Shown: positions 928 to 64,000 of the stretch, piece after piece
Position numbering within the stretch: the first letter of the stretch is position 1
How the letters are laid out: every line of letters begins with the position of its first letter
Assembly: GCF_040807025.1 (NCBI RefSeq)
Contig: NC_090981.1
Coordinates: 40,589,817 to 40,653,816 of the forward strand
Length of the DNA: 64,000 nt
Source: Struthio camelus
Lineage: Eukaryota > Chordata > Aves > Struthioniformes > Struthionidae
Direction: 5' to 3'
Notes under the pieces: generated by a model
Database searches by the model: none
What the model was told of the DNA's origin: nothing
The model's input: the letters and a program-made list of their open reading frames with translations, nothing else
Position numbers and translations under genes: made by a program

Positions 928-2568
<1,641 letters not shown>

Positions 2569-2858
2569 GCTGCCGGCGGGGGAGCCGGCGCTGGTCACCT
2601 AGGAGACACGTGCGAGGGGGCCTCCGCCGGCCGCCGCCGCACGCCAATGGCGTCACTCGGCCCGTCCGCGGCTGCTCGCTGGCCGCGAAGGCGCGCAGGC
2701 GCGCTCCGGGCGCCTAAGAGCCGCGGGCGGGGAAGGACCCCTCGGGAGGTCGGCGGCGGGGCCGCGTCCGGCCCGACTCACCTCGCTTCGGCTGCGGGTC
2801 GCGGGCCGGCGGCGGCGGCGCGGAGCCGGGCCGCGCATGGGCTCCCCCAGGGCGGAGG

Positions 2859-5800
2859 ATGTCCGGGAGCTCCGCGGGGAGGCAGGCAGCGCCGGCGGAG
2901 GTGGGCTGCGCGGCGCCGCGCGGGGGGATGCCGGGCCGGGCCGGGCCGGGCCGCAGCCGCCCGCCGGTTCCCGCAGCGGCGGCGAGGAGGCGCGAGGCAG
3001 AAGCGGGTAGGGAGTTGGGGGCTGTTTGGTCAGTTGGGACCGGAGAGGCTGCCAAGCCCTCGGCGGGGGCGGTGGGGCCGTGTGGAGTTTCCTCCGTCCC
3101 CTTTTTCTGCGTACGAGATGTTTATTTTTACTTACTGATGCAATTTATGCAAAAGGAAAAAAACCCCTCACATAGTGGTATCAGCTTTGCCGGTAAATAT
3201 GCAAATTAAACTAAAAATAGTTTCAGTTTGAATAACACTAACAGCTAACTGCAAACGCAAATCTTTGCCAGTTGCTGATGCCTGTCACAGTCAGGCTGTA
3301 TCTGCTAATGATATTTTGTATTAACTTAAAAGTTATATAAGCCGTAGTGTAGCCGTAGACCTTTTTGGAGATGACACAGATGTGCATTCTGTAGCTGCAC
3401 AGTTTCAGCCGTTTGCATAAAGTCCGTTTCAGAATGTGACCCGTTATAGTGCCTCCTCCAACAGCATCCCATGTGGCTGTTATGAGCAAACAGTGCTTGG
3501 ACTACTGCGCCCACCACAGGTAGCCTGAAAAGTGGCTCTGGGGTGTGAGTTTATACATCTGTCATAGCAGACTGTTTCTCAAATCCAAAAACAAATATCG
3601 GCCCTATTAGCAGTTTCATTACTTTTCACTGTCAGGCAGACTTCTGATACGTGTTATAGTTTCCAATTCTAGATTAGTCCATAGTTCCTCACATAGCAAA
3701 CAAATACTAGTATTTGATTTTACTGTGCTGCCTAAATCATTTTTTCCCTGTCACCTATTTCTAACTTTTCAAATGCAAATGCCTACCTTTTAAATGCAAA
3801 GAAGGTGTACTGAAAAACAATGCAGAGATAATGCAAACTTGACCATAACATAAAAAGGATATAAAAGAGCTCAGTCTGTTTTTTCACTCTCAACTCAGTT
3901 TTAATTTTACTCCTTTAATTTGAATATGTTTCAATTTTCAACATGTTCTTGTTTGCCAAATTTGCTGCAAAATATCTAGTCACAAGACTAGAAATAGTAA
4001 CCTTTTTTAATGCTTAAAAAGCTTAGTAACCTTTTTTAATGCTTAAAGAGCTTGTAATTCAGAGATTCAAAAAGAGTAATAAGTGCCAGCATTTGTTGCT
4101 AACTATGAACGCGGCAAGTTAAACAGTTTCTTAATATTAGTGACGTTCTGTCATTATAACGTGAATGACTAATGTAAATGAAAACCACCTGCAAGATATT
4201 CTTGGTACACTCATGAAACAAAGCTCAAATTTTCCATAGACAAATGTACCCAATTTAAAAAGGGGAGGAGAGTGCTACATTAACAGCAAGGTGCTTGTTT
4301 TTTGCCAGGTAACAGGTTGGTTGCCACATTCATTTGATGACTTCTTTGGAAACACAAATATTTCTTCCAGCACAGTTCCTGTGAACGCAGTAGAAGGGAG
4401 CACTAGAAGAAAGCGGCCCCAGAAGAAGAAAGACCTATCATCTTTGCCAGGAAGTAGCAAGGACAAGGTTCTGCCCAGAAAAAGGGCAAAGTCATCCTCA
4501 GTAGACTTATCTTGTAGCCAATCCAGACAAAATCAAAGCCAAGCTCACGATGAGCCATGGGTAGATAAATACAAACCTGAAACTCAGGTATGAGAACTAG
4601 TCTAAAGTGTTAATGTAACAGTGACATTCCAGTGTAACATAAACATGTTGTTCTTCCCTTCGTATTCTGTCTTACTCTGTTTATAAATATATTCTATTTT
4701 ATTAGACCAGTGAAGTATTAGTTTGACTTATCTGCTGCCTGTAGTGAAGCTTTTAATGAGCTACCTATTTATGGAAGATGTACTTTTACCCAGGCTTTCT
4801 GAGGAAATAAAGCTACTGAGATCTTGCTTCCTGTCCATGCACTCCTAAACTTTTGAACCCATTGTCAAATTTCAGCCAAATCTGACAGCTGCAAGTATGT
4901 GAAAATCCACAGCCAAATAGAGGAGAGAGAGAGAGTCCGGTTAGTGCCCTCAACAGGGAAAGACAACAGGAATTACCTTGCATGTTATTTGGCAGCAGCT
5001 AACTGGGTTCTTAGCACACACAGGATACTGGACTAGTTGCAGTGTGTGCTATCTCTTCCCTATTTCAGTGCCATCTTAGGCACCGCGACATGGGTTGAGG
5101 TTACTGTGGTACCTTAGGGCTTAAAGGAGAAAGAATTCAAATCTATGGTAAACTTGATTTCACTGGTTCTACTCATGGAGCAGCTCATGCACCTTGTGTT
5201 TCAAACACGTCAACACATGCTGAGTGTCTCGTAGAGTTGAGTGCTTAGTGATTTGAGTAAGCTAGTGTAGTGTAGTAACTTGTATTCTAGCCTTGTAACT
5301 CAGTTCCTCTCCAGAGATGAACTATTAAAAATTAAATCTAAAACACAAGTAAGCTGCACACAATTTACAGAAGCTCCAAAAATCTATGTAGTATTAGAGT
5401 TGGTATGGCCTTAAAAAGTACAAGCTCCAGCAAGAGCTATAGAGCATACAAATAAAATCAAACAGGCTTATATTGTTGCTACTTTAGGAATGGTGAAGTG
5501 TTTGTTATTTCCCTCCTGCAGGCTGTGGAAAATTGGTGGTTTGAGAAAACAGGCTGTAATGATTATGTGTAGCTGTTACACTTACTCCTGAAAGAGCATA
5601 AAGGCATATCTGTTAACGTTTCAGTCAGTATGTGTTCTGTTCTTGAATCTTAACGTTATAGTCTTAGAAACCAAGAGGTGTGTATATGTGCGTATGCACT
5701 TCATGTATTTTCATCTGGTTTTAGAATGACCTTGCTGTGCATAAGAAGAAAATTGAAGAAGTTGAAGCCTGGCTAAAAAAGCACATATTTCAGAGACAAT

Positions 5801-19976: not shown

Positions 19977-20502
19977 GCACAACAAAATACGGACCACTGA
20001 CTTACTCGAATAGGTTAATGTGCTGCAGAGGCCTGTTGCTAAAGAGGGCATAGTCTGTACAAGAGTATTCCTCCCAACTACTTATTTGGACTTGGCCTTC
20101 TAGCCCACGTATGCTGTGTCAGCATCAAGAAAAGTCTCCTTAGCTTTGCCTTAACTTTGCAGGATAAGCCCTGAACTGAGTACTAAATCACAAACTATTC
20201 CCTGCCTGTCCTGAGCCATGAAAGTAATCTGTCTATTGATTAAACAGAGAGAATAATAAATGACAAACTGAAATAGTTTGAAAGAGACTGTAGATAAGCA
20301 GTATGACTCTTAAGTTATTTTTTACACATTTTAATTTTTCTTTGTGTATGTACAGTATGTTTCCTGAGAACACATTTATTAAGTTGTCAGCATTTGAAGG
20401 TTTCATTAACGTTTATACCTTCAAAAAATTGCTGTTTGCAAGTTTGAACTTTTTGACAGAAGAGATATGTAAAAATGTTTGATATCCAGTACTGATGATG
20501 TA

Positions 20503-20508
20503 AATAAA
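20503..20508 (+). terminator. RAD17: RAD17 polyadenylation signal AATAAA
   Basis: AATAAA lies about 530 bases past the RAD17 stop, followed by T/GT-rich sequence (TTAGTCGTTACTGTTTTGTAC). An earlier AATAAA near 20253 is an alternative. The 3' UTR is therefore about 0.3-0.55 kb. Confidence 0.6.
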
Positions 20509-21129
20509 ACTCTTAATGTATTAGTCGTTACTGTTTTGTACTCTACCACAGATATTTTTATATGTGTTTACAAATTGAAGCATGTGTTGTACACTAGCTT
20601 ATTTCAGATTCCTTTCTGGAAAATATTTTCATAACTTATCAAGGAAAATAGCATTCAAGTAGAAGTCCTTGACCTTTGTATGCTTTTTGAACGTTAATGG
20701 TGTAGTGGGTGGCTTTTCTCCTTAAATTGCCGTTGTGCTGGAGGAAAAAATAGTCCTGTGCTTGCTAAATGACACAGGAAATGTTTTGTATTTGTCTGAA
20801 CAGACTGTTTAATGCTTCAGAGTTTCACTGTAACTGGGTTTGCTCAATGCAAAGCAGTCTAACAAGTCACCAAGGTTAGTGGTAGCGCGGGAATAAGAAG
20901 AAAAAGCTTATTTTGAGTATGTGGTGCATGTTTGCATGTCTGTACTTTAATGTGTAACGCGTGGTGGATAAAAGTATGTATTTATCAAGCATAAGCTTGG
21001 AATTAATGCTGCTGTTAAAAGGTCTAAATATCACCTCGATGAAAGCTGAGGTGTAGTTTTAAAGACTATGGCGATTGTTTGATTTTTTTTTGAAGAGAGA
21101 AAGCTGCATGTTAACTGAGAGAAGGGGCT

Positions 21130-22400
21130 TCGGGCTGTGGCTGCCCCTGGGCACCCGCCTCGGCAGGGGCCCTTGGCCGCCCCTGCTCGCCTTCGGTAGC
21201 GGCTAACTTCCCTTAAGCCTTGCTGCGGTTTAGTATCACTGAACTATCCAACCGCTCCTGCCTTAACAGGGGGCCTAATCCTGCCGGGGTGGTGACAGGG
21301 AGGCGAGCAGGAGGCTGCTGCCGCGCAGCTGCTGGGAGAAGGCAGGCGAGAGGCGCTCCCCTGCCACGCTGTTCCTCAAACGCTGGCTTGCTCTGCTCAG
21401 CCACCCCGTTAAGAGGTCGTTCTGAGTGGTTTGCTTTTTTTTCCCCAAGTCAACGAAGATTAAATTATTTAAAGCCGTCTTTCCCCCCGCCCCGGCCTGC
21501 GCGCTGCCGGGCGGCGTTTCCGGGCGCCGCCGCAGGTGAGGCCACCTGGGCGGGGCGGCGCATGGGCCCTGCGCCGGCGGCGGCCGCGGCGGAGGTGGAG
21601 GTGAGCGCGGCGGGCCGGGGCCGGGGCCGGGACGGCCGAGCCCGCCGGCGGGCGGACATCTTAGAGAGGGCGGCGGGAGCGGTGGCGGCGCGGCTGGGCG
21701 GCGGCCCCCCCCGCTGACCTGCAGCGCTTCCCTCCCCGGCAGGCGCGCCGGAGGCAGGAGAGCCGGGCCGAGAGGCGGGGAAGCGCCGCAGATGGCGTCG
21801 CTGGACGCGGGGGCGCTGCCGCCGCTGCCGCTGCTGCCCCCCTGCGGCCCCGGCTTCTGCCCCAGCGAGGGCCCGAGCGGCCCGGCCCAGCTCAAGCCCG
21901 TGCGGCGATTCATCCCGGACTCGTGGAAGAACTTCTTCAGGGCCAGGCGCCACCACGGCTCCGGCTGGGGCAGCGCCGCCTCCGACGTGCGCTACGTCCC
22001 CGAGGGCGTCGAGTGCTCGCCGCCGCCCTCGCCCGCTGCCCTGCAGCCGCCGCCCGGCTCGGCTGCCGCCTCCTGCCGGGAGGCGCCCGGCGGCTCGGGC
22101 GGGAGCGGCGCCTGGCGGGCCGAGGGCGAGGCCGCGCTGGCCGGCGAGGCCTGCGGCTCCCTGGCCCGCCGCCCGCGCTCCGGCCAGGCCTACAGCGAGC
22201 TGGCCGAGGCCTACCACCTGCGCTACGCCTACATGAAGTCCTGGGCCGGCCTGCTCCGCATCCTCTGCGTGGCCGAGCTGCTCGGCGGCGCCGCCGTGTT
22301 CGCCTGCGTCTCGGCCTACGTGCACAAGGACAACGAGTGGTACAACATGTTCGGATACGCGCAGCCCTACGGCGTCGGGGCTGGCAGTACGTACGGCGGT
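21130..22400. promoter_or_regulatory. CpG island, MARVELD2 promoter and first coding exon
   Basis: Very GC-rich, CpG-dense DNA beginning about 1.2 kb after the RAD17 stop and extending 600 bases into MARVELD2 coding sequence. A probable 5' exon ends at the GTGAGC donor at 21601, and a CCCCGGCAG acceptor at 21742 would open the coding exon. No TATA box is seen. The exact start of transcription cannot be placed by eye. Confidence 0.7.
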
Positions 22401-25400
22401 TATTACTACGGCGGACCTAAGACTCCGTTTGTCCTCGTAGTAGCAGGAGCGGCGTGGGTAGTGACCATAGCGTTGCTGGTGCTCGGCATGTCCATGTACT
22501 ATCGGACCATTCTTCTGGATTCGAGCTGGTGGCCTTTAACTGAATTTGGCATTAACGTGGCCCTGTTCTTCCTGTACATGGCAGCTGCGATAGTGTACGT
22601 AAATGATATCAATCGCGGTGGACTCTGCTATTACCAGCTATTTAATACGCCAATAAACGCATCTTTTTGCCGCGTAGAAGGAGGTCAGACAGCGGCAATA
22701 ATCTTCCTGTTTGTCACAGTGGTAGTCTATCTGATTAGCGCGGTGGTTGCTTTAAAGTTATGGAGACATGAAGGAGCCCGGAGGCACAGAGAATTAATGG
22801 AGCAAGAGGTAAGTCATAAATTACCGTTTCAAATCGAATACGCATGGGATGATGGAAAGCCGCTGGAAGCTCGTCTCGTGCCATGGGCTGAGTCCTGTCA
22901 GGCATGTCTTGCCTGCGGCAGTTCCAAAGCCCGAGCATCAGCCTTTACCCGTCTCACTGGTAAATTTGAGATCACTGAATGAAACGCAGCCCGCACTTTT
23001 TAAGATGCCTGATTCACGTTTCTGTTGCTTTTTTTTTTTTTAATTGACCTCGGTAAGGAATTGCTTCTGTTCTCTTTGCAATATTCAGCTCTCTTCCTGC
23101 ATCAGCTGACGCACTGCTTCCTGGCATGTATTTCCTAAACAAAGGAAGAAGTGAACAATGTGCCTGTTCAGCTATTTCGTAAGGTGGCTTAAAGCCACCT
23201 AGTATTTGAAGTCTGTGCTTTCAGCACGTTAAGCGCTAGTGTGAATGACAATAAAAAGAAGAAATGGTGATTTTTATGTTGCAAACAAAACTCCAAGGTG
23301 CGTCTTGATGTCTTTTTAGCTTTCCTCGTGGTAGTATGGATAATAATAGTAATAACAAAATGGAAATCTGAGACACCACAATCTAGCCAATCAGTTTTAA
23401 TAATTAGAATGAAAAAAGGGTAGGAAAACCTATGTTCTAGGAACCGTGTAACTATCATATATGACATTTGAGAGAAAAAAAAAAAAAAGGCAGATGAGTC
23501 TAAGTCAACTTTCATTAGAGTACTTGTTCGGACCTCTGGTGCCTCCCTTGTTTTTCCTGAAGCAGAGGAGGGAGGGAATCTTGGTTCTTCATAACGAATT
23601 ATTTTAGTGATTGAACAAGGTACACATCGGGGGTTTGGTATAAAACAGGAGGAACAAATATTTTTATGTATTATCTTCTTCCTTTTGTTAAGCTTTTTAC
23701 ACTTCCTTAAAATTCTGCTTTTGAGATAAATTGATCAGATTGATCAAGAAGAACTTGTCTATACACAGTGTAAGCACTGTATCTTGCATAAAACTGGGAA
23801 TCCCCTTTTGATAAGTAACTTGCAGTTCTATTATTAAAATTTTAAAGCATTTTTTAAACTTATGCAAAAATGAAACGAGCGCTGGAATTACACAGAGGGT
23901 GCTCAGTCACTCTTCCCTGCTGTACTCTGTGTTCGTTTATTCCAGTTATTTAAGAAAATCTCTAAAGAGAATGCTTTTACAATGCAAGTTAGGCTTTAAA
24001 GAGTGTCGTGCAAAATAGCTGCTGCTTGAGTTATTGGTTAGAGCACTGAAACGTTTTCTAAGCAATGACCTAGGCCTCAGAGCGTCAGTGAGCTAATGTA
24101 GGTTGGAATGTGCAGTAATAAAGGTGACCGGGTGCACTATTTAATCTGATTTGTTCCTTAACAGCTCTTCCAGGAGATCCTGTTGTTATTTTGGGTTGGG
24201 GTGTGTTGTTGTTGTTCTGCCATTCTTAAATGGTTTTTAAATATACAGATCTGAAAAATATTCCTTATTCTAAATTTGTTCATACCTAAATATACATATA
24301 TAATTATCTGTACAACATGATTTTGAAAAAGTTTAGATTTTAAGAGTCTGTGCATGCTATTTATGCTGAGAATAAAACTTAAAGCTCTTTTTTTTTTATT
24401 TTTTGATAGATGAAAACACAGTTGTCTTTGCCAGAAAAGAAGGTAAGAAACAAATTTATTTTTTGTTTCTTTGCTGTTTTTTTTCCATATGCTTGTTCTT
24501 TTTCTCGTGATTCTTTGTTTTGACTGACTGATTTAGTATTTATCCTTCTAGGAAGAGATTAGGTTTAGTTCTTTAATGCAACCTGGACAACTTGCTTCTA
24601 CTCCGGAGGTTCAGAAGGAGCTCATAAAGTTGCTACCACTGGTTAGGCTAGGTTATAAATTTACAGTGTCAGCAAATCTGATAACTGCCTCTGTGTGCGC
24701 TCTTATCATTTTACATTGACAGACAGGTCCTGCAGCATTTATCACAGTATTTAGCAGACATGGCTGTAACAGCAGAGCATCTCATGTGTTGTAGGTTTTA
24801 GGGTGTTTTTTTTTTTTTTTTGAACTCCTGGTTGCCTGTTTAAATTGGAGGAGAGGCAGTGAAACACAGTGATACATACTGAGTGAACTCACGGTTTGCT
24901 CTTGGGTCTCTGAGACAGCTCCAAAATCCAGCCTGCGAGCTTTGAAATACCAGCAAATGCCAGAATCTGTCATACTGAAGGAGGTTTTTAGTACTTCCAC
25001 TGCACAAAGATGCAGGTGCATACAACAGAAAGATTGTATAGGATCTTAGCGTAGCAGATGTTGATGATTCTCAGAGAACTTACAGTGTATTTCTTTCGAT
25101 CTTAAATGCCTCCCATTAGATATTGTGCACTTCATACTACTGTTTTCTCAGTTACTGACTTCAGTACTGAATCAGGATCCTTTTTTATACGCTGTGGCAG
25201 GACTCCATGCGTTGCTACTTCTGAGTCCAGGGAGAAATTGTGCAATAAGGACAAAGGGGAACTCCGCAGAACGGAATGATGTCCATCAGCAAGCAGTCAC
25301 AGATTAGACAGAAACTCAAGGGAACTTTCTGAAATTACTTAAGACACACGGGAAAAATCTTTTCAAGAAGTATTTATTTGTTACTGGAACAGCTATTTGG

Positions 25401-33007: not shown

Positions 33008-34140
33008 AGCTGCTCTTCCATGTACCTACCAGCCAACAACCTAGTATTTCTACTGGGTGTTTAAACTGTGACTGATTTTCTCCTTGATGCTTTTAGTGTC
33101 CAGTCAGAGTTTTGCGTGTGCACAATATTTCAAAGTGTGTCTGTGATCAATAACGTCAAGTACTGCTGGATTTGAACTGTAGAGTGCTACTTAGGGCTTT
33201 CAGTCTTTTAAATAACTATTATCCTGACAGCCTTTAGAAGTAAATTGTATGCTTGCAAAGACATAAATAGTAATTTCATAGACATCTGAAAAATGGTACT
33301 TGCATGATATTTAGTGAAAAACTGTTTCATTGGGTCTGAGCAATTACCACACCCCACTCGCTGTGAGATGGAACACCTCAACCCACTTTTAAAATGCAAC
33401 TGCCAATTAACTGTTCATAGGTTTATAATGATAGTTTATTAAAAGAAGTCCTAAAAGAAAATTATTGTAGTGAAACAGCTTCCAGCCTGAAAGAGGCAAT
33501 TCTGAAAGGTTTTTTCTACATGGTGGTAGAACTCATGTTCTATGGGATTATTCTATGTAGTTGAAGACATAGCTACATTATTCCACTACTCAGTTCCCTC
33601 CTGTGAGGGCATTTGCTTAGCCACAGAAAATATGCCCTGAACCTTGCAGTAGTTGAGAAATTTCAAGCTGCGCATTTTAGAATGGAGTTGAAGCAGTGTT
33701 TTTGCTATTGGGATAAAGTACAATTATTTTCATGAGGTAACTGATCACGGTAATTATACAATAACAGTCAATATTACGGTGTGTGTAAGTAATGCTCTGT
33801 CCTTTTCCCAGTCCCTTGGGTTCTTCAGTTAATGAAGGGCATACGTAGTCATGTACAAACAGTGTTATAATCTCGCTGAATAGCTTATGCCCTTTGTAAC
33901 AAATCCCCATGCCCACTTTTATGCCCTCCGGTGAACGTTTTGGAAGTCACTGGCCTTGGCTCGTTTGCAGCAGCCACGCCACCTCCGAGGTGTCTTTGTG
34001 AAAGAGGTGAGACACGAGCGGCGGGGGGCTGAGCCGCTCGCTGACAGACGCTCGGCGCTGGAGCCGCCCTGCCGCCTCCGGTTTGTTCGCTGTGCCTTTC
34101 GGCCACGCTGCCTCCCTCTCGAATAATTCGATATATAGCT
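33008..34140. other. Intergenic DNA upstream of GTF2H2
   Basis: AT-rich and unremarkable to about 33900, then rising in G+C toward the GTF2H2 CpG island. I see no exon, known repeat family or conserved motif in it. Confidence 0.5.
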
Positions 34141-34143
34141 ATC

Positions 34144-34167
34144 GATAGATAGATAGATAGATAGATA
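34144..34167 (+). repeat. (GATA)6 microsatellite
   Basis: Six exact GATA units flanked by degenerate GATATA. It lies at the edge of the GTF2H2 CpG island and is probably length-polymorphic. Confidence 0.95.
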
Positions 34168-34179
34168 TTTGTTTAATCT

Positions 34180-34950
34180 TGTATTTCACTGTGGCGGTGG
34201 TGGGGTTTCCCCACGTCTGGGTGAGTTCGCCTTCCGCCAGGGACAGCCTGGCTCCCCCGGCGCCCATTTCGCCTCTGGCGGTGTGCCGGGCGGCAGCTCG
34301 GCGAGGCCCCCGGGCAGCGGCGGCCTCCGCCGGCCCCTCCCCGCCACTCACCCGCCCTCGCCTCGCCCTCTCCGGCCGGCGGGGCCGGGGGGCGAGTCCC
34401 GCCCCAGCGCGGAACGATCGCTCAGCCGCCCTGGCACCGCAGCCGGGAGGGATTCGCGGAAGCACCGAGGAAGAAGCGGGCGGGCGCAGGCGCTTCCGGC
34501 CGCCGCGGCGGGGCCGTTGGGACCGTTGGGCAGGCGGTAGGCGCGGCTCGCGCCGTGTCAGGCTCGCGCGGGCGGCGCGTCCCCCCCTCCCCCCCCCCGC
34601 GCCGGGCGGCGTCGTCCTGCGCGCCCCCCCCCCTTTCCCCCGAGCGGCCGCGGGGCGCGGTGGCCGCCTCGCCCCTCGCGGCGGCCCGCGCAGCCCCGTC
34701 CTCCGCCGCTCTGCGCCCGCGGCAGCGGCCGGCGGGCGGGCGGCTCCACAGCTAGATTGTCCTCGAAGCGGCGGTCGTGCCTCCCTGTCGGGCGTGTGGC
34801 GGGGCACCGGCCCGTCAGCGGCTCAGCCGGCGGCGGGGCCGGGGCGGCTCGGTGGGGCCGGGCGGCCTGTGGCGTTTGGTGGGAAAGGTCTAGTTACAGG
34901 TCTGTCACGGTTGTGGTCCGGCAGCAGCGTAGGTAAGAGCAAAGGCACAG
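34180..34950 (+). promoter_or_regulatory. CpG island, GTF2H2 promoter
   Basis: CpG-dense with long C and G runs, ending just before the GTF2H2 start codon. A possible acceptor (TCTAGTTACAG at 34899) would let a non-coding first exon splice to the ATG-containing exon, as in mammalian GTF2H2; this is inference. Long ORFs in this stretch are by-products of base composition. Confidence 0.7.
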
Positions 34951-34952
34951 AC

Positions 34953-45216
<10,264 letters not shown>

Positions 45217-48262: not shown

Positions 48263-48540
48263 GCTTCAAAATAGCATTTTTTGCTTTTTGCACAGAACAG
48301 CAAGGGCAGTGAGCAGCGAGGGTTAGGAGTGGTCTCTATTTGGCCAGTAATATTTAATAATATACCTGTTTATACGGACTCAGCTTATTTTATATTCCTT
48401 TACCTTTTCAGAGTAATGTGGAATCAAGTGCTTATAACTTGGAGAAGTTGCATTGTTAGTGTAATAGATATGATGACTACGTGATATCTAGAAGATGCAG
48501 GTAATACAATTTGGTAGCCTTCCTTGTTTTTTCGGAAAAT

Positions 48541-49160
48541 GTCTGCCAAAGAGAACCCTACAGTGGAGGTGGATGATGATAAAGATATGTGAGCTGAATC
48601 CTTCTGTATTGCAGGCTCATTTCTCTCATCTAAATTTGGATTTTCACAAGTTAGCAAAAAACATGGAGGCAAAATTCCAACAAATCCGTGATCAGCTGCA
48701 AGATGGTTATAACCCTGCCATGAGAAGTGAACGCAATAGATTAAAATCTTTCTTGTCCTATAAAGCTTATTCATGGTCTCAGACAGAAATGGCAGTTGCT
48801 GGGTTTTATCACGAGCGTTGAATCCCATGTGCAGTGTTCCTGCTGTGGATTAGTTTTACTTGCCACCAAAGTTAGATGTTCCCCATATGAACAACACAAG
48901 AGATTTTGTCCCACTTGTGAACTTGTTCTTGGCGAAGAGGTGGGTAATATTTCAAAGTATGGCATACGTGTTCAGAATTTGGCGAAGAACTCAGCAGAGC
49001 ATATGTACTGATACAACGAGGAGGAAGCAAGACTTCAGTCCTTTGATGGGTGGCCGTCCTATGCCAGAGGAACACAGCCCGCTTTGCTTGCCAGAGCTGG
49101 ATTTTTCTTTGCAGATAACTGAAAATGATGCTCAGAAAGATTTCCGTTTTGATTTATGAG
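48541..49160 (+). pseudogene. NAIP: NAIP remnant: N-terminal and BIR1 exon, start of BIR2
   Basis: The stretch GYNPAMRSERNRLKSFLSY matches the start of NAIP BIR1, up to MAVAGFY. A frameshift near 48805 follows, and BIR1 continues in another frame with intact zinc ligands: C-x2-C, 16 residues, H, 6 residues, C (CSCC to HKRFCPTC), then VGNISKYGIRVQNL. An in-frame TGA at 49009-49011 interrupts the next part. Past it, NEEEARLQSFDGWPSY starts BIR2 and stops at TGA 49120-49122 before any BIR2 zinc ligand. An ATG at 48540 opens a 17-codon stretch that might be the old start. Confidence 0.85.
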
Positions 49161-50227
49161 ACAGCGCAGGTTGGCTTACAATATTTAAATGGATGCAACA
49201 GTTGCAGGGTCTGGATTTTTTTTTATAAGCATGTAAAGTCTATATAATAATTTCAATCTCTGAATTTCAGTTCTTTTTTTTTTTCTTTTTTCCCTGGAAT
49301 GGCAGCATTGGCAAGGGCAGAACCTTTATTTTTATTACTCTCACTTACAAATTGTTCATGGCATATGGCTCAATTTGGTTGCCTTTGGTTCATTTCAGCA
49401 ATTTCAGTTCATGTTGACTGATGAAATTTAGAGGCATTTCCCCTCCTACCTGTATAGCCAGGACTACTGGTCGTGCTGTGACTTCATACTTCTGTTTCAA
49501 CATTGAATGGAACAAGAAATTTGTTAGAAGTTACCGTGGTTACAGACGACATAGCTGACCCTGTTGAGAAATATGCTCTGAGCCAGAACTTAGAAACTCT
49601 GGCAGAAGCACCGCTTTAGAGAGCACGGTGCAGAGAGTCTCAATGGCTCTACAGGAAGTTAGCGTGGGTTCAGAAAGGATGTTTAGGTCCAGTTCAACTT
49701 GGCCTAAGTTAACTTGAACTGCAAGTATTGACTTGCAGTCAAGTCTGCATGGTGTAACCTGAATGTCCCTTCACCACCCTCCAAACGACCCTTTTTAGTC
49801 TGCTATCAGACTGAGGATTTATTCATTTATTGATGCTGTGCTGGTATCAACACTAATATTCTTTCCAGACCTTGGAACACTAGGGATCATGGTAGAGAAA
49901 TACCAGAATGTCTCTGCATAGAGTTAGGTCAGGTCCAGCAAGCTTTTTAAAAAGCTCAAGTTTATCACTTAATATATAAGTTTTTTATTTGCTGTACACA
50001 AGCTAACCTCACATATAACCAGATGGGTGCTGAGCCGACTGAAAGGATGATGAAGAGAGGCTGTGGGAGCTGGCTTACCCGGAAGGAGTGGTAGCACTTT
50101 TTGCATTATTTAGAAAATCTCAGGTTCCTATTAGTCCAGTTTAATGGATAGTTGACTGTATCTGACTTTTTGTGTACACAATCAGCAGTTCTGTAGTTTT
50201 GTCATGTTAATGTCATCCCTTCTTCAG
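49161..50227. other. Gap where BIR2 end and BIR3 should lie
   Basis: About 1 kb between the BIR1/BIR2 fragment and the NACHT exon. I could not find BIR2 zinc ligands or any BIR3-like CxxC...HxxxxxxC pattern on the plus strand. A weak stretch at 49176-49215 might be decayed BIR2. The rest looks like ordinary non-coding DNA. Confidence 0.45.
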
Positions 50228-51870
50228 GCATAACACTTGTTGAAAGCCAGTGTCTTCAAGAAGCAAAGAGCTTGACTGAGCAACTTATGAAGGCTTACGA
50301 TGATAGTAGCTTCAGCAAATTGTTCTGCTTTGGAAATACAACCCATTTTGCCATTAATTTTCAAATTACTCTATGGGGACCTGTTAATTGTCTCAAAGCC
50401 AATGACTGGCTGATCATTGGCTGTCAATGATCAGCCGATAGAGCAGCTCTTTCTTCATGAAGTCCTTGAGAACCTCAACTGCACTATTGCTCTAGAAGGT
50501 GAAGCAGGAAGTGGAAAAACTGCATTGCTCAGGAAAATAGCTCTTCCTTGGGCCTCAGGCTGCTGCCTTGTTCTGGCCAGGTTTAAGTTTGTATTTTATC
50601 TCTCCCTGAAGTCAACAAGATCAGATCGGAGCGTGGTTGATGTTATATGCAAGCAATCGGTAGGATTTATGGGATCATTAAAAGAAACAACCCTAAGAGA
50701 CATAATTCAGCCACTGAAAAAACAGGTCTTATTTCTTTTGCATGACTATAGTGATATGAATTCAGTTCCCATAGTTATTGAAGAACTTATACAAAGGAGC
50801 CATCTCTACCAACGTTGGGTGTTGCTGTCTGTACTAACAGGACCAGAGAAATCCACAAGTATGCAAATACTACTCTAAGTATTGTGGAGTTTCCGCTGTC
50901 CAGCAATATATATGTAGTAAAGAAATTGTTCCCGTACACTATCGTCCTTGTGGAGAAGCTTCTCTTTAGGCTGCAGGCCGAAAAGTCCATGCAGACTGTT
51001 CTAAAGACACCACTTTTTATGGTGATTCTTGCTATGTATTGGATACAGCACCCAAAGGGAAATACATTCAGTGATAGGGCTATTTTTAAAGCTTACCTGC
51101 TCTATAACTTCCTAAAGTACAGGGAAGAAAGGGAACGTGTACTGGCTATGTTTTCCTCATGTGGTGAGCTTGCCTTAAGGGATCCGTTTTGACTTCACTG
51201 AATGTGATCTCACTGAAGCAGGCGTTGATGGAGATGAAGCTGTTAAATTGGGTCTACTGAGCAAATTCACTGCCCAAAGGCTTCATCCAGTTTATAAATT
51301 ATTTCATCCCTTGTTCCAGGAGTTTCTTGCAGGGCGAAGAGTGAGCTCCTGGATTCTGATGTAAAAGAAAAACTGGAGAGAGGGCTGCACTACTTGCAGC
51401 AAATCGACACGTTCAGAAAAGCTGCTGGCTGCTGTTATTTTTTGTTAGTTGATGCTTGCAGCTTTCCTTCTAAAGCAGTCCCCCGGATCATATCCTATTT
51501 ATTTAACTTGATCAACTGCAAGAGCTCATTGGAAAATCAGTCAGAAAATGATGAACATCTGCAGCACCATTCAGACCTTGCACTAATGATGTACTCAGTT
51601 GACCAGTTAAGGTTTCTTAGTCCCCAGCTCCTCCTTTCAGTTTTCATTGTGTTTTTACTGAACTTTGCAACCTCTGTAGCTTAAGAGAGTAATACTGTTC
51701 CTGCGTGTGCCCCAATCATTTTTCAGTTCCTAACAGGAGAAACATTTCATTAACTTGATTTGTGTCACCAAATGCATCTGTGTTGAAGTTCCTTGGGGAC
51801 TACCCAGAACGCCTGTCTTTACCCAGTAGTTTTCAGGTCAGGGTACATAGAAGTAAACATGGACGAAAAT
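50228..51870 (+). pseudogene. NAIP: NAIP remnant: linker, NACHT and winged-helix exon
   Basis: It begins after a good acceptor (TCTTCAG) with QEAKSLTEQLMKAYDDSSF, the NAIP pre-NACHT linker. The frame breaks near 50425. The next frame gives LEGEAGSGKTALLRKIALPW (Walker A intact) and VLFLLHDYSD, where the usual Walker B aspartate after LFLL is histidine. Further frameshifts near 50850, 51187 and 51340 split the HD/winged-helix part (NRTREIHKYANTTLSIVEF; SSCGELALRDP; TEAGVDGDEAVKLGLLSKF; ELLDSDVKEKLERGLHYLQ). TAA codons at 51682-51684 and 51751-51753 lie in a frame that still shows homology (SNTVPACAPIIFQFLTGETF). Homology fades near 51870. Confidence 0.88.
50408..50436. repeat. Perfect 11-bp inverted repeat with 7-nt loop at a NAIP frameshift
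   Basis: GGCTGATCATT, loop GGCTGTC, then AATGATCAGCC. The arms are exact reverse complements. The hairpin sits where the NAIP-remnant reading frame is lost before NACHT, so it may mark a template-switch event. Confidence 0.85.
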
Positions 51871-52639
51871 GTAGTATGTCTGTAACATATAGCAGGTGCT
51901 ATAATGTATAGCAGGTGCTATTCCTCACTGGAGGTTCCAATAACTAGTCGGGATTATGCTCCTGCGTTTACACTTCTTAATGACACAGCGCAAAGGATAG
52001 AAACACAGGAAGGTGGAATTAATGGGCTCTCTAATTCTAATTCCCTTTATCTTCCTGTTCCCTAGGTAGTTGACAATCGTGTATTTGTGAATTCTTAGGC
52101 TGTCCTCTCTCATATGTGTTTCAGGTGGCAGGCACTCATTCTATCTTAACAGGTTTCCATTCTGAGCCCTAATTTCAAACTACTAGCCCTAATACTGCTT
52201 TCTGATCTGAAAGGTGTGTGTCACTTGAGAGGCAGAATCACACTTCAGCAGCGGGAACGCTGCTCTATCATTGAACAGCAACAGAGGACAAGCTAATAAA
52301 CGCTGCTGGCTATGTGTTTTCTGCTTGGGGTGCTTTGAGTGAGTCTGCACTGGGCTTTCAAAACGGAGGAATACTGGACAGGGTGCATTGCAGGGGCACC
52401 TGTGGGGTTCTGCCAGGCTGCACGTGTGGGTTGCAAGCAGCAGAAATAGCAGCAGAGGATGAGTTGGCAGGGAAAGGCAACGGTGCCAGCAGGACAGGAA
52501 GCAGGCATCAGAAGGGAAGGGGAGGCAAGGCTGTGGGGAGGTGCAATAGTGAAGCTCAGCTACAAAAAGCTTGGCAAATTGTCAGAGAAACAAACGGATT
52601 AAGCTGATCAAACCAGTTTCATTGTACGTTTGTCTTTGA
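51871..52639. other. Remnant-gene intron with no recognised content
   Basis: The stretch lies between the NACHT exon and the first LRR segment. It contains a short direct repeat of ATAGCAGGTGCTAT (about 51890-51922). An open 97-codon frame at 52314-52607 is GC-richer and resembles no protein I know. The LRR exons of NAIP that should be near here were not found. Confidence 0.35.
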
Positions 52640-52820
52640 TTTCTTCACTGAACTACTTTTTTTCAAATTTGGACAAATTTATCTGCCTGGAGGAACTGTC
52701 AGTGCTCCGATGTGACAATTGCAACATATTTTATAACAATACCTGAGGGCTTCAAAAATCTCTGTAACATGAAGAACTTGTTGATCAACCAAGTGAAGTT
52801 TGAAAACAGTTCTAGGCTGG
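52640..52820 (+). pseudogene. NAIP: NAIP remnant: LRR segment A
   Basis: FFSNLDKFICLEELSV corresponds to the human NAIP LRR stretch FPNLDKFLCLKELSV. A TGA near 52745 ends this frame. Homology resumes one frame over as IPEGFKNLCNMKNLLI and ends at a good donor (GGCTGG then GTAAGG at 52821). The 5' edge of the exon is not certain. Confidence 0.75.
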
Positions 52821-53807
52821 GTAAGGTGCACTTGAAAACTTTTAAGTTCTGTGTTTCATTAGAACTTGTTAATACTTAGTAGCAGTTTTAATTTCTTAAT
52901 AGGTGCGTAACCTCTCTCTGAGCTGACTTCCCTTTGCCTCTGCCTTGCATTTTTTTTGCTGTGATCTTAATCACCCCAACAAAAAAGAGCTGAGTATTTT
53001 AGGGAAATAAATAAACCTTGGGTTTAGTGCTGTAACTTGGGTAAGTCAGTCTGGAGCAATCATCAGCTGCACTTTGCTATTTGTTTCAGCAGAGTGAATA
53101 TTTGTCCGTCTTGGTGCTCACAATCTGCCAAACTTTGGCAGAGAGAGCGAGCACAACTGGGAACTCAGTTCAGACCACGTGCATAGCAGCTCTGATAAGT
53201 CAGTGAGCAGGTCACGACTTCTGTTTCGGCTGTCTTATTCCAGAAAGAAGCTTACTTTTCAGTTCAAGGCCCCTAGGTAACTAATTTTTTGTATGTTGTT
53301 ATAACAATTACCCATCCGTACTGGAAAATGTACATACAGTACAAACCAACAATATTCAGTGAGCTGTACACTCGACATCTGGCCAATTGATAGCACTTTA
53401 CAGTGTACCTAATAACTGCAGGAAGGTGTTTAAAGTGTGTTAGTCACAGTAAATGTTGGAAAAACTATAGAGTGTTTTTCATATGTGAAAGAAAATGGAA
53501 TCTATAGGAATTTGCTTTTAATTTAAGGCCAGAACAATTCATAAGGATTCTTGTTATAAAATAAAAAACATCTGATTTATACAAGTGGTGAATGTAAACG
53601 AAAGAAGATTCTGGTTGCTCTTCTGAGTGATAAGACAGGAATCACGCTGCGGCTTCCATTTGTCTTTGTATCTTTGTATCACACTTTCTTTTGCTGGGAT
53701 GGAAGATGCATCCTTCTGTAGGATAGTTCACCGTATAGCTTTTTTTTTCCCCGATTCTTTATTCACTGTACAATGAATCTTCTGTTTTACAACACTTTGT
53801 TTTGTAG

Positions 53808-53968
53808 CTGAATTAATTGAGAGTTTCCAAGACCTCTGTTTCTCATCTGGACTACTCTGGCTACTTTGATTCTGCATCCTTTCTGGCTGCACTTTCTTCA
53901 TGCAAGAAATTAACAGAAATCAAGTTAATCCGATCGTTTTTTGAGAGAACAATACTTGCTTTCTTTAG
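53808..53968 (+). pseudogene. NAIP: NAIP remnant: LRR segment B
   Basis: It is bounded by acceptor TTTTGTAG and donor TTTAG/GTAGG. It opens as AELIESFQDL in phase with segment A, shifts frame near 53845, and continues SASFLAALSSCKKLTEIKLI, which matches the human SLMTMLVSCKKLTEIKF region. The splice sites survive although the frame does not. Confidence 0.78.
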
Positions 53969-54090
53969 GTAGGACAGCTATTTAATATAAAAAAAAAAAC
54001 AAACCCTAATCTGTTAAATCTTAGTAGTTTAAAGAAACTACTAATTTGAAGTTGCAAGTATGATAATACAGACTTTTTTTCCTCTCCTAG

Positions 54091-54438
54091 CGGTTGCTCT
54101 GCCCAGTTTTGTCCAAAGTGTTAAGATCCAAAGTGTTGGATCTGAACAGTCCATTTTCTGAGAACAAGGAAGCTTCTGAAATTTTTGGTTTGTATCTATC
54201 TTCCTTTTCTGCTCATCTCATTTGTTGCATTGACAGAATTATTTTGTTTCAAATCCTTCTGGAAATCTCATTAAATGCCAGTGCACCAACAATGCTGTCT
54301 TTTGTCCAGCGTGTTTCTCGACTGCCTGGCCTTGTGACAATAGGAATGCTGGGGTGGCTAATTGATGCAGAGGCCCTTAAAATGTTTGATATCATGAAAG
54401 AGCAGCATCCCCAGTCCAGGAGTTTAAAATTATCCTGA
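54091..54438 (+). pseudogene. NAIP: NAIP remnant: C-terminal LRR exon
   Basis: Starts after CTCCTAG with VALPSFVQS, matching human PFVASLPNFIS. A short direct duplication (TCCAAAGTGTT twice, 54112-54138) coincides with a frame change. The new frame gives KVLDLNSPFSENKEASEIF and then jumps to the final LRR and tail, SRLPGLVTIGMLGWLIDAEA, ending MKEQHPQSRSLKLS and TGA. Several LRR exons between these two parts in human NAIP appear fused or lost. AATAAA at 54538-54543 could be the old polyadenylation signal. Confidence 0.82.
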
Positions 54439-55539
54439 CAATGGCTCTTGCTGTTTTCACCAAGTATTCAAGACTAGAAAAGTCTGAAAGTGTTGGGTTT
54501 TTTTCACCTGTATTATGAGTTAGACACCTGCATTGCAAATAAACATATACTGTAAAATTTTAACTGAGATGAAATATGTCAGTCTCTTCTACAGCCGTGT
54601 TTGTTAAGACAATGTGAAAGGATCACAGAACTGAAGATGGGATTAATGTTGGAAAACTTGACTGGCTTTGCAAGTTTATTTATAGATTGCACCTAAGTGA
54701 TAGCTTTCACAGAAGAATGAAGCTTCCTTAACTAGTACAATTTTGCTTAGAGCCCGTTTATTTCTATTGTTTTGCTTGCAATGAAATCAGTGACATGACT
54801 CTTCATCGTGAAATAAAAAAACATAAAACCATTTATAGTCATGATTGCATTAAAAACACTATTGGACACCAGATTTCACTAGCTCTAAAAACCGATGACG
54901 GTGACTTTCTGTAACTTAATGCCAGATACTAGCACATACCTCATTTACAGAGGGACGTTTATGGGAGGGACAATTTATGCTTCTTTCTTTAGCAATTGCT
55001 AAAACTACTAAATAACAGTTGCTGAACTGTTGACTTAGAACCTTTGCATCACTGCAAAGCAGAGCAGTCTTAGTTTACTTTATCTAGGCAATGAAAGAAA
55101 AGCCTTCAACGTGGCTTAGGAGAGTTAAGACTTCAGTTTATGCCTTTCTCTTTTCGCTCGACTATTTGTGGGAAAATTATTCTTCTGAGGTTCACCACCA
55201 CAGGGAAAGGACTGAATACAGCAGAATTCAGGCCCATATTTGGCTAGTTTACCTGAAATGCAAACTGCTGCTGCTGCTAACTAAATCATTGTCTAGTTTT
55301 GTGGCTGCAGCCTTCATTCTACAAGAGTTAAGACTGAAAGGGCTCAGGTATAAATTCATACTTTCTATTACCTTTCCCTAGCCTGATTTTTTCTGTGTTG
55401 GTTTTAGTATGGTACCATAGGAGTAGTTAAAAAGGCCACACAGCAAAAACTTGCTGTCATATTTCAGCAACTCATATAGCAGAAAGACTTTTATGGAAAC
55501 TAAAAAAACAATTACACAAAAAAACCACCCCTAAATTCA
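54439..55539. other. Convergent spacer between the NAIP remnant and SMN1
   Basis: Tail-to-tail interval of about 1.1 kb. An open frame of 96 codons at 55091-55381 resembles nothing known. It is otherwise AT-rich, with no repeat family recognised. Confidence 0.45.
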
Positions 55540-56136
55540 AAGTTTGAAAGTAAACTTTATTCACAGTGAAACAAAGATTAATTTTTCTTGAGTTCAGCTA
55601 TCATTCAGGATTCTGATCCTAACCATAAAAATAGGTATCTCTTTTAATATGGTGGTGTACTATTTTCCAGGTCATTGCCATCAGCGGCTACAGTAACATA
55701 CACTGCTGCCCTACTGTGTCTTGGCAGAAAATACTGTACTTGCTTGTTCTATTGAAAAGCACTGGGATTGTAATTCAGATCAAGAAATTTAGATCAAAAG
55801 TCTAAGGAGTACAAGATAAAATAGTTACAAGAGGTGTTAAATTGAGGAATGAAAGAAATCTAGCAAGTATTTTTTTTTAATTCACATTAGGCTTAAAATT
55901 GTTTCAAGGAGCTAAAGAGCATTTTATTGCTGCAGTACTTACTAAATATACGTTTGACTGGAGGTCTTTAAGAAATAGTCTGTTTCAATGCACATAGAAT
56001 TACTAGTCTCCAGTAATTTGTCTACTAGTTATCACTATTAACAAAACGTTAAGGTTGTCTTGATAAAATTCTGCTCTTCACCATCAACCAATTCACAAGT
56101 GATATACCCCTCTCCGTGGGAGAGATCTGTACCTGG
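55540..56136 (-). other. SMN1: SMN1 last exon (exon 8), probable 3' UTR
   Basis: On the minus strand a strong acceptor (TTTCTCTTTTACAG) precedes 56136. Downstream, AATAAA occurs at 55556-55561 (TTTATT on plus). It pairs with the GTAAGT donor that ends exon 7 at 56826. Human SMN1 likewise puts its stop in exon 7 and leaves exon 8 untranslated. The first 32 codons of this exon are open if exon 7 is skipped. Confidence 0.6.
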
Positions 56137-56854
56137 CTGTAAAAGAGAAACAGAAATTAAGTCAGTACTTTTTTTTTTTTTTTAAACACAAATAACTCAT
56201 CTGCACAGCAATGAGATGATTGTCAAACTCAGAAAAAAACAGTAAGGGACAGAATATAGTTTTGTTCTGTAAGGAACTGAACACATATTGGAGAGTTCTA
56301 AACAAATAACTTTGGATAAAAGCACAGACAAAAGTAACGCGCAGGAAATAATTCAAAATAGCAGGGAATAATTCAATGGAATATATAAATTAAATGTGAT
56401 CTTGTCCTGAAAACAAAACTTAACTAGACTTCCTTCTTCATAAAGAAGTAGTTGTTTCTGAAGATGCGTACATAGCTGTGAAAACTGCATTTCACTTAAC
56501 ATCTTATTTTCAAAATCGCTCATAAACAGATAATTAAGACAGCTACTTTAACTAAGTCAGTCAACTGCCTTGTTAAATCTGATGTAGAGAGATAAGAAAA
56601 CACTTTCCTTCTGTATGGCCAGGAAAATACTATTCCGTTGCTAGTAAGCAAGAAGGGATCAATAGTAGCAGAAACTGAGGCATGAGAGCAGCGGCAATTC
56701 TTGGAGCCCAAAGTGTTTGAATATGGATGTCAAACTCTCTAAGAGCTTGTGACACAAACTGTAATTTCAAACAAATTTATCAGCTAACAGTGTATCTTTC
56801 TATAGCACAAAATTACAATACTTACAATCCTTCAAGGCAGTGATGGATATTCAG

Positions 56855-61362
<4,508 letters not shown>

Positions 61363-61503
61363 GGCCAGGCCTGGCCCGGCCCGGCCGCCCACTGCGCACG
61401 CGCGGCGCCGGCCGCTTCCTGCGCGCGGGCCCCACGCAAGCGCCGCCGAGAGGACGCGCCCGCTACCGCCCCCGGCAGCTTTTTTTTTTTTTTTTTAAAA
61501 AAA

Positions 61504-62744
61504 ACTTGAGCCCCATGTTCTCTCTACTTACAGGATTACATCCCGTTTATAAAAATGCTCCCTCCGGGTAAAAAAAAAAAAACACTGCCACATTCGCTGG
61601 CAACATAAGACTTCTGGTAGCTACATTTACACTCCTGTCAGGTGATGTAACAAAGGGGACCAAGAACCCTAAATTATACTCATTTGGCAACACTCAGGAA
61701 CTGCAAGTCAGCTTTTAGCAGAGGGAGCAATGGCTGTCCCTATCCTGGCACCCCGGGTTAGGGCAGACCGCCCACCCCTGGGCCCTGCAACCCCTCACCC
61801 CAGCACACAGCACTGCAAGGTGAGCATGCACCAGCAGCTCCTCCCAGTCACATCAGCCCCACCAGGACTCAGAGCCACATGGTCCAGCCTTAGAGATGGC
61901 TTAGGGGTACCAAATCAAGCACTACACGAAGCCGCATGAGAGCTCGTCTCAACTACTGTATTTTGCTTAACTCCAGAGTTTTTATAGACTACACTGTATG
62001 AGATACCACACAAACACACTAATAAGTGCTTAATTTCAGTTTTAACTACATAAACTGCAATGCACAGCAGTTTTAAAGAACTAGATGAACTTGCACATAT
62101 GCGTTGCACTTGCATCCTCGAAAACCATCTAAGAAAACCCTGGCAAGCATGAGAGCACGATCCAGAACCAAGCCAGTTAAGAGCAAACAACAAAACTTGC
62201 TTGATTTTTCTCAATCAGCTACAGGTATTGTGTATTGCCAAAACTAGTTACATGCTTCTTGAAACAGCTCAAGCTACATTAGGTCTGTAAAAAATAAATG
62301 CACTTAGGTCCACTTGAGTTTATGCAAGCAGCAGGAGAGAATTCAAAGACTTCCCCTTCAAGAGATTTAAGGCAGCTTACCTCAGTTAGTACACAATATG
62401 CTTAAGCAGTCAACCTGTCCATCAGCAAGCACTGCATTTTCCACTCTCACTAAGTTTTATTCTTGAGAAAGCAGCAAGTTTCAACCATTTTAGTGACAGA
62501 GCAATTTTGCAATCTGTTTACATCTTCAATTCATTAACTTCAAAACCTGTAGCTTCTCTTTAATAGTTTCATGGTCTGCTAAGTACACCCATGAAGACTA
62601 CACATTTTTCTATAGTCCAGACTTAATACCACCAGATTGTATTTCTCCACAATTAAATCCAACTGTTCCTGATGCATTAGTTCATTTCTTAGAATTAACT
62701 TATCAAACATAACCATTTCAATTAGACAGTATTTCATGCAACAT
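61504..62744. other. Intergenic DNA between SMN1 and SERF1
   Basis: Just over 1.2 kb with no recognisable exon. A moderately GC-rich patch at 61730-61940 has an open frame on the plus strand with no known relative. The remainder is AT-rich. Confidence 0.45.
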
Positions 62745-63184: not shown

Positions 63185-63257
63185 TCACTTTGCTCCCGCT
63201 TGCAGAGACTTCCTTTCATTAGCCGCTTTTTGTTTTTGCTGCATGATTTCAGAGTCT
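63185..63257 (-). CDS. SERF1: SERF1, last coding exon only (gene continues past right edge)
   Basis: SERF proteins are small, highly charged and disordered, and accelerate amyloid aggregation in vitro; their normal role is still debated. On the minus strand, acceptor TTTTACAG precedes an exon that reads, after one split-codon base, DSEIMQQKQKAANERKSLQA then GAK and TGA. Human SERF1 ends its short form with DSEIMQQKQKAANEKK, so the match is close. The basic N-terminal half (ARGNQRELARQKN) is not found between here and 64000, so it must lie beyond the window. SERF1 next to SMN1 in the same direction is the mammalian arrangement. Confidence 0.85.
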
Positions 63258-64000
63258 CTGTAAAAGAAAGTAAGTTAGATTTCAGTATTGGCTCGCTGTT
63301 TTTCAAACTAGGGCTTCTCCTGGCTTGTTTTCTACAGCCCTTTAGTAACACCAGTTTCAAAGGAGAAAGTTAGTACTATGTGTATTTGTATAAAACAGTT
63401 AGCTGTTATTAAAGTTTCTATTACCCTGGTCTCTGACGCCAAGGAAGAATTTGTATTTAAGTTGCTTCATTACTAAACATTTAAGTTCCAGATTAAAGGA
63501 CATAATGGATTAACATCTTCAAAATATTGGCAGTCTTTTAAACACTTTTTACCTGGTATTACAGGAAAAGATTAACTCCCCCTCCAGGTCTCACCAAAAA
63601 TGAAGCTGTTATCAGATACAAACCTGCATCCAGTATTTACCCTCTGGGACATAAATGGATCATGAATCAAAGCAAAGCACTTAAACCCTGTTTTGACTAA
63701 GACACTTCATTTCTCCAAACTACTTTTATTCCCATTTTGCTCACTTGGAGTTTGGCTGATTTGAGTGGCTATGGAGCAAGCCTCTACCGATTTGATTAAA
63801 AAAAAATCACTTGATTTAGGTTCAAACTCCTAAATGTTATAGCCAGCAATTTGTTACTATTTCAGCAGATGGAAATCTGACTTTTATCTAAGCTGTAGGA
63901 TTTTTAGTACCCATGGCATCCATATGTCAACCTAGCTTCATATTCAAACCCCAAAGGTCTTACCCTGTATGTAGAGTGTACCAGAGCAGTCTGAACATAC
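63258..64000 (-). other. SERF1: SERF1 intron running off the right edge
   Basis: No exon is seen upstream of the SERF1 last exon within the window. The sequence is AT-rich with no recognised repeat. Confidence 0.5.

Follow-up and report, generated by a model that had tools for sequence, protein, structure and literature searches.

The 64,000-nucleotide window analyzed here (G000:C40:40589817-40653816, on contig C40 of a 1.45-Gb bird genome assembly in 262 contigs) carries the remnant of a NAIP gene. It is very probable that this is the orthologous NAIP, inactivated in place and now decaying as a unitary pseudogene, and that its partner NLRC4 was likewise inactivated in place, on contig C3. 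The reading of NAIP as a unitary pseudogene is supported by the ancestral position of the locus (synteny and intron-separated homology blocks), by the failure to find another NAIP, and by the lesions on both homologs. An initial annotation had already proposed that NAIP is a unitary pseudogene here and that the genome is bird-like, and the synteny, the ZW-like genome, the lack of another NAIP in the searches and the lesions shared by the homologs bear this proposal out.

Using human proteins in tblastn, the gene order on the window is GTF2H2 (plus strand), NAIP (plus), SMN1 (minus) and SERF1 (minus), in agreement with the order and orientation previously assigned. The same order, in mirror image, is that of human 5q13, taken here as the ancestral arrangement; the view that this is the original locus is therefore upheld by synteny. 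In addition, a processed copy is ruled out by the intron-separated blocks and the retained neighbours.

With human NAIP as the query (an end-to-end match to PDB 8fvu_A), the alignment runs collinearly on the plus strand from 48582 to 54477 of the window. The segments succeed one another in the order of human residues 11-87, 87-188, 393-416, 433-583, 579-971, 1088-1118, 1159-1194 and 1336-1402. The expectation (E) values are 2e-36 (summed) for BIR1 together with the start of BIR2, 4e-70 for the linker and NACHT to helical domain 2 (summed), 6e-4 and 5e-4 for the two LRR exons, and 2e-13 for the C-terminus. Two further matches, of residues 185-306 (1e-4) and 305-342 (0.14), were left out as other human BIRs falling on the BIR1 DNA. 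Chance similarity is ruled out by the E values together with the domain order.

In the remnant, a candidate ATG, BIR1 and the beginning of BIR2 occupy 48539-49113 (residues 11-188; BIR, PF00653, 25.5 bits against a cut-off of 22.9). The stretch 49114-50225 follows, in which no tblastn match was obtained at E values up to 1 and the exons for residues 189-392 are gone or unrecognizable; the remainder of BIR2 and BIR3 were thus not found. A DNA search of the genome with 49170-50215, in which very common words are skipped, returned two matches, namely its own place on C40 and that on the homologous contig C41. The linker, NACHT, winged helix and helical domain 2 span 50226-52020, with five frameshifts and three stops. 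Further downstream on the plus strand are an LRR exon at 52639-52828 (residues 1088-1118; donor GTAAGG at 52829), a second at 53808-53969 (residues 1159-1194; donor GTAGGA near 53970), and a third, detected by alignment, at 54091-54185 after the acceptor TCCTAG. The last exon, at 54271-54477 (residues 1336-1402; PDB search E 8e-9), contains a premature TGA at 54436-54438. The initial annotation had ended the remnant at 54438, on this premature stop, and its boundary has to be moved, as the human C-terminus runs on to a TAG at 54475-54477, which ends the reading at the human NAIP terminus. Residues 972-1087 are unrecognizable, and residues of approximately 1229-1332 (LRR exons), like 189-392, have no match of their own in the window.

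Four of the nine frame pieces score above the Pfam cut-off: the BIR piece, NACHT (69.8 bits), the Nlrc4-like winged helix (32.0 bits) and NLRC4_HD (98.2 bits). Against PDB, the NACHT piece matches human NAIP at 3e-39, mouse NAIP5 at 1e-32, NLRC4 at 1e-21 and NLRP entries at 3e-7 or weaker. The NACHT is thus closer to NAIP than to NLRC4 or the NLRPs, and the winged helix and helical domain lie alongside it, as in a NAIP ortholog. The Walker A motif is intact. Domain identity, several splice sites (the two donors and the acceptor above) and Walker A had all been said to survive; the splice sites and Walker A do, as does the identity of those domains that remain.

Lesions were called with a frame-aware spliced aligner at two settings, the stricter of which heavily penalizes introns that are not GT-AG. 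The stricter run was made because a break in the frame may be passed over by the aligner as an intron; at the looser setting, introns other than GT-AG made up 12 of 21 in NAIP on C40 and 5 of 11 in SMN1. Over the whole protein, the looser setting gave nine frameshifts and seven stops, with identical residue positions for C40 and C41, and the stricter setting gave eight frameshifts per homolog with 11 (C40) or 10 (C41) stops plus two in insertions. The frameshift positions agree between the homologs in 9/9 and 8/8 cases, respectively. Since many of these calls fall where the homology is poor, the counts were limited to trusted blocks of 885 codons, which contain 7-10 frameshifts and five stops. 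Seven frameshifts are common to both settings (near 48810, 50323, 50807-50838, 51178, 51341, 51745 and 52729), one near 54150 appears only in the looser setting, and two were read by eye (48585-48592 and near 53835). Three of the stops are substitutions, at 49009 (TGA), 51682 and 54436, and the other two, at 50411 and 51756, lie within inserted stretches. When the lesions were compared with the second homolog, C41 proved to carry the same ones, the surrounding 25-mers being identical at all 15 trusted sites. A working NAIP would have three BIRs, NACHT and LRRs in a single open frame that can be spliced, and no such frame is present. The earlier statement that frameshifts or stops are spread over all domains needs correction in that not all domains remain.

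The TGA at 50411 belongs to an insertion of about 24 bases that holds a perfect 12-bp inverted repeat with a 5-base loop (50408-50436, plus strand). No other such repeat (arms of at least 12, loop of 3-12) occurs in the 64 kb, and 0.06 would be expected from base composition; the insertion looks like a possible template-switch event. In contrast to the shared lesions, a frame-shifting 19-bp tandem duplication at 51888-51906 (plus strand) is seen in the homolog alignment on C40 only, and so is a change at 50741 that alters the first aspartate of the Walker B motif (D551 in human NAIP). Judging from the human sequence, both would be derived states. This presence of lesions on one homolog only suggests that the decay of NAIP is ongoing. 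Altogether, C40 and C41 differ at 17 sites inside the remnant (14 substitutions and three indels), and no difference is seen from 53990 to 56167.

The whole genome was searched with the NAIP protein, giving 19 matches: ten at the NAIP locus (five per homolog), eight to other genes with BIRs (on C1, C11 and C18), and a single match on C3, which is the NLRC4 remnant. An NLRC4_HD search gave two matches, both at the NAIP locus. Neither search found a second or intact NAIP in the 1.45-Gb assembly, so the check for an intact gene that the initial annotation had proposed came back negative. Seven of the 12 matches of a NACHT search lie in open frames of 586-666 residues, which shows that intact NLR genes, where they exist, are recovered.

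The accompanying check for NLRC4 led to a gene that is itself a pseudogene. The NLRC4_HD search taken alone suggested that NLRC4 had vanished from the genome; this was rejected, as the weak C3 match from the NAIP search is an NLRC4 remnant lacking the helical domain. The remnant (C3:102726711-102730431, minus strand) consists of a CARD exon (58% identity; CARD 66.9 bits; open for 112 residues), most of the NACHT (52-57% identity) and a late exon for residues 928-1018 (49%); for residues 395-927, no match was found at the C3 locus. Frameshifts at residues 112, 131 and 244 and a stop at residue 186 were called in both aligner settings, and the codon aligned to the human start encodes V. The lesion density is similar in the two genes, with three frameshifts and one stop in 451 trusted NLRC4 codons and 7-10 frameshifts and three substitution stops in the 885 codons of NAIP. 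YIPF4 adjoins the NLRC4 remnant on the plus strand, with four exon matches of 87-98% identity to a human fragment and, in one exon, a Pfam match of 14.1 bits, under the cut-off of 28.6. A BIRC6-like first exon nearby was recognized by eye only, with zero Pfam families. The arrangement on the YIPF4 side is that of human NLRC4, which has SLC30A6 on its other side; in the present genome, the neighbourhood on that side may be rearranged.

If the lesions were assembly or sequencing errors, NAIP would be intact. Frameshifts are indeed the usual error of long-read assembly, and several of the indels between C40 and C41 fall in runs of one or two letters. However, C40 and C41 agree at each of the 15 trusted lesion sites, which rules out assembly error unless the homologs are not fully independent, as could be the case if one was used to polish the other. 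Moreover, substitution stops and missing exons are not errors of this type, and in GTF2H2 and SMN1 next door, in the same window and with the same aligner, both settings gave zero frameshifts and zero stops. An intact NAIP hidden by errors is therefore hardly credible. The tandem duplication of NAIP in mouse and human would make room for another explanation, in which the remnant is a decayed duplicate and a working NAIP lies elsewhere. This is extremely unlikely in view of the ancestral neighbour order, the lack of any further NAIP or NLRC4_HD match in the genome, and the fact that NLRC4 is dead as well; a second functional copy is ruled out, within this assembly, by the whole-genome search. 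It is also very unlikely that reduced function was kept, as a short protein or a non-coding transcript. The N-terminal frame of the NACHT is open for 154 residues with Walker A intact, and the 112-residue CARD frame of NLRC4 is open too, but the first Walker B aspartate has changed on C40, and such open runs are expected when few lesions have hit.

Several observations weigh against in-place loss of both genes. The evidence is the genomic DNA of one individual, and for NLRC4 it comes from a single haplotype. A search of approximately 126 kb on the other side of NLRC4 (C3:102600001-102726000) did not find SLC30A6. The BIR family search of the genome, with ten matches, missed the BIR1 of the window itself, so a decayed BIR elsewhere could be missed. 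The family search also gave BIR matches at C6:12464619 and C3:146926702, which the NAIP protein search did not return, and the NACHT search gave matches on C22 and on C26. A functional copy might lie in unassembled DNA, but the guanine-cytosine (GC) content of the NAIP locus is only 40-42%, which speaks the other way.

Regarding the neighbours, GTF2H2 lies upstream at 34953-45213 (plus strand) as a tblastn exon chain with an Ssl1 domain in one exon; the spliced aligner placed 386 codons at 90% identity, with 14/14 introns GT-AG. Downstream, SMN1 occupies 57801-61401 on the minus strand (tblastn exon chain, E 3e-56; SMN_Tudor, 100 bits) with 62-65% identity, and the strict run left 18 human residues unaligned with 7/8 introns GT-AG. 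A single SERF1 exon was detected at 63188-63259 (minus strand; tblastn E 2e-8). GC-rich stretches (48-55% GC) occur at 2001-4000, 20001-24000, 34001-36000 and 60001-62000 of the window; the last two coincide with the GTF2H2 and SMN1 starts, and the first two may be promoters of other genes.

The two copies of the NAIP locus lie on C40 (70.4 Mb) and C41 (89.9 Mb), which over 36084-64000 of the window are 99.62% identical (27,944 columns, with 46 substitutions and 16 indels). A (CT)18 microsatellite at 43228-43263 is five units shorter on C41. DMRT1 is a Z-linked gene of birds, and five DM-domain matches were obtained in the genome, three of them on C41 (9.28-9.38 Mb) and the other two on C8, leaving C40 without any. 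Because the DM-domain cluster is on C41 only of this pair, we infer from the sequence that C41 would be the Z and C40 the W, with the NAIP locus within a long pseudoautosomal region of the ratite type; the bird would thus have large sex chromosomes that have differentiated little. In ratites, both the pseudoautosomal regions and the W chromosomes are described as large (PMC11036779).

To estimate the age of the loss, it was calculated that 3.6% of random substitutions in the trusted codons would create a stop. Three stops in 885 codons then correspond to approximately 0.03 neutral substitutions per site since the loss (Poisson 95% interval 0.0065-0.092; hand calculation). At 8.0e-10 substitutions per site per year, a rate given for kiwi in PMC9550048 and borrowed here, the age is approximately 40 million years, with an interval of approximately 8-115 million years, and is poorly constrained. 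The emu-tinamou split is placed at approximately 62 million years ago in PMC11036779; compared with this date, the point estimate favours a loss after the start of the palaeognath radiation, and an older loss is possible. The remark of the initial annotation that the loss is recent enough to remain legible is fair, though the age interval is wide. Human NAIP and NLRC4 are identical at 147 sites, of which 136 could be scored in the NAIP remnant and 92 (68%) are kept; the NLRC4 remnant keeps 52/75. The 92/136 retention would need a functional NAIP from a sauropsid to be turned into an age; as it stands, it gives no support to a very young loss. A tentative, somewhat doubtful extension is that the NAIP-NLRC4 inflammasome still worked when the living birds last shared an ancestor and for a long time within the ratite-type lineage, with independent losses following in several lineages of birds. 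If so, sensor and partner would have been lost together repeatedly, and the present genome would show a late case in which decay is still going on.

Mammalian NAIP is functional: it binds cytosolic flagellin or a type III needle or rod protein and triggers NLRC4. In the proposed mechanism, NAIP with such a bound ligand would seed NLRC4, and caspase-1 would then be recruited; the step from NAIP through NLRC4 to caspase-1 is described in PMC7157566. With both genes dead, this route could not operate. Since both genes are broken, the NAIP-NLRC4 sensing route is predicted, and appears, to be absent in this bird. Loss of either gene would remove selection on the other, and the second loss would follow. 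Surface sensing by TLR5 may remain. Red foxes, reported to be without NAIP and NLRC4 expression, still released IL-1beta upon flagellin according to PMC10741141, so that a substitute sensor would be possible in principle. Chicken is reported in PMC13076529 to be without PYCARD and GSDMD, and the loss of NAIP and NLRC4 would therefore be in keeping with a broader reduction of inflammasome components in birds. These losses have a bearing on the tolerance of birds to gut bacteria that are flagellated or use type III secretion, and on the question of which avian sensor acts upstream of caspase-1.

Compared with their human counterparts, the remnants retain 46% amino acid identity for NAIP (8fvu_A; 407/885 trusted codons), with the same neighbours, and 55% for NLRC4 (8fw2_A; 249/451 trusted codons), whereas the frames are broken and exons are missing in both. 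Among birds, the survey of Laing et al., 2008, with chicken among the genomes used, reportedly did not find NAIP or NLRC4 in chicken. That absence came from searches in early assemblies, whereas the present genome still contains the two dead genes, showing that the bird lineage once had both. A negative record thus becomes a positive one, of two genes once present and lost in place, and their lesions can be scored across bird orders for dating the loss and for asking whether sensor or partner went first. Among the matches listed in the open-access literature, as far as their excerpts go, none was found to describe a remnant of NAIP or of NLRC4 in any bird. The closest parallel is in Canidae, in which both genes are lost, either missing or pseudogenes, according to PMC8411117, so that sensor and partner are gone together in one lineage. 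That case is mammalian, whereas in the present bird both remnants are legible, NAIP stands at its ancestral locus, and some lesions occur on one homolog only. Coupled unitary loss of NAIP and NLRC4 is therefore of a kind already known from Canidae, and what is apparently new is the presence of the remnants in a bird.

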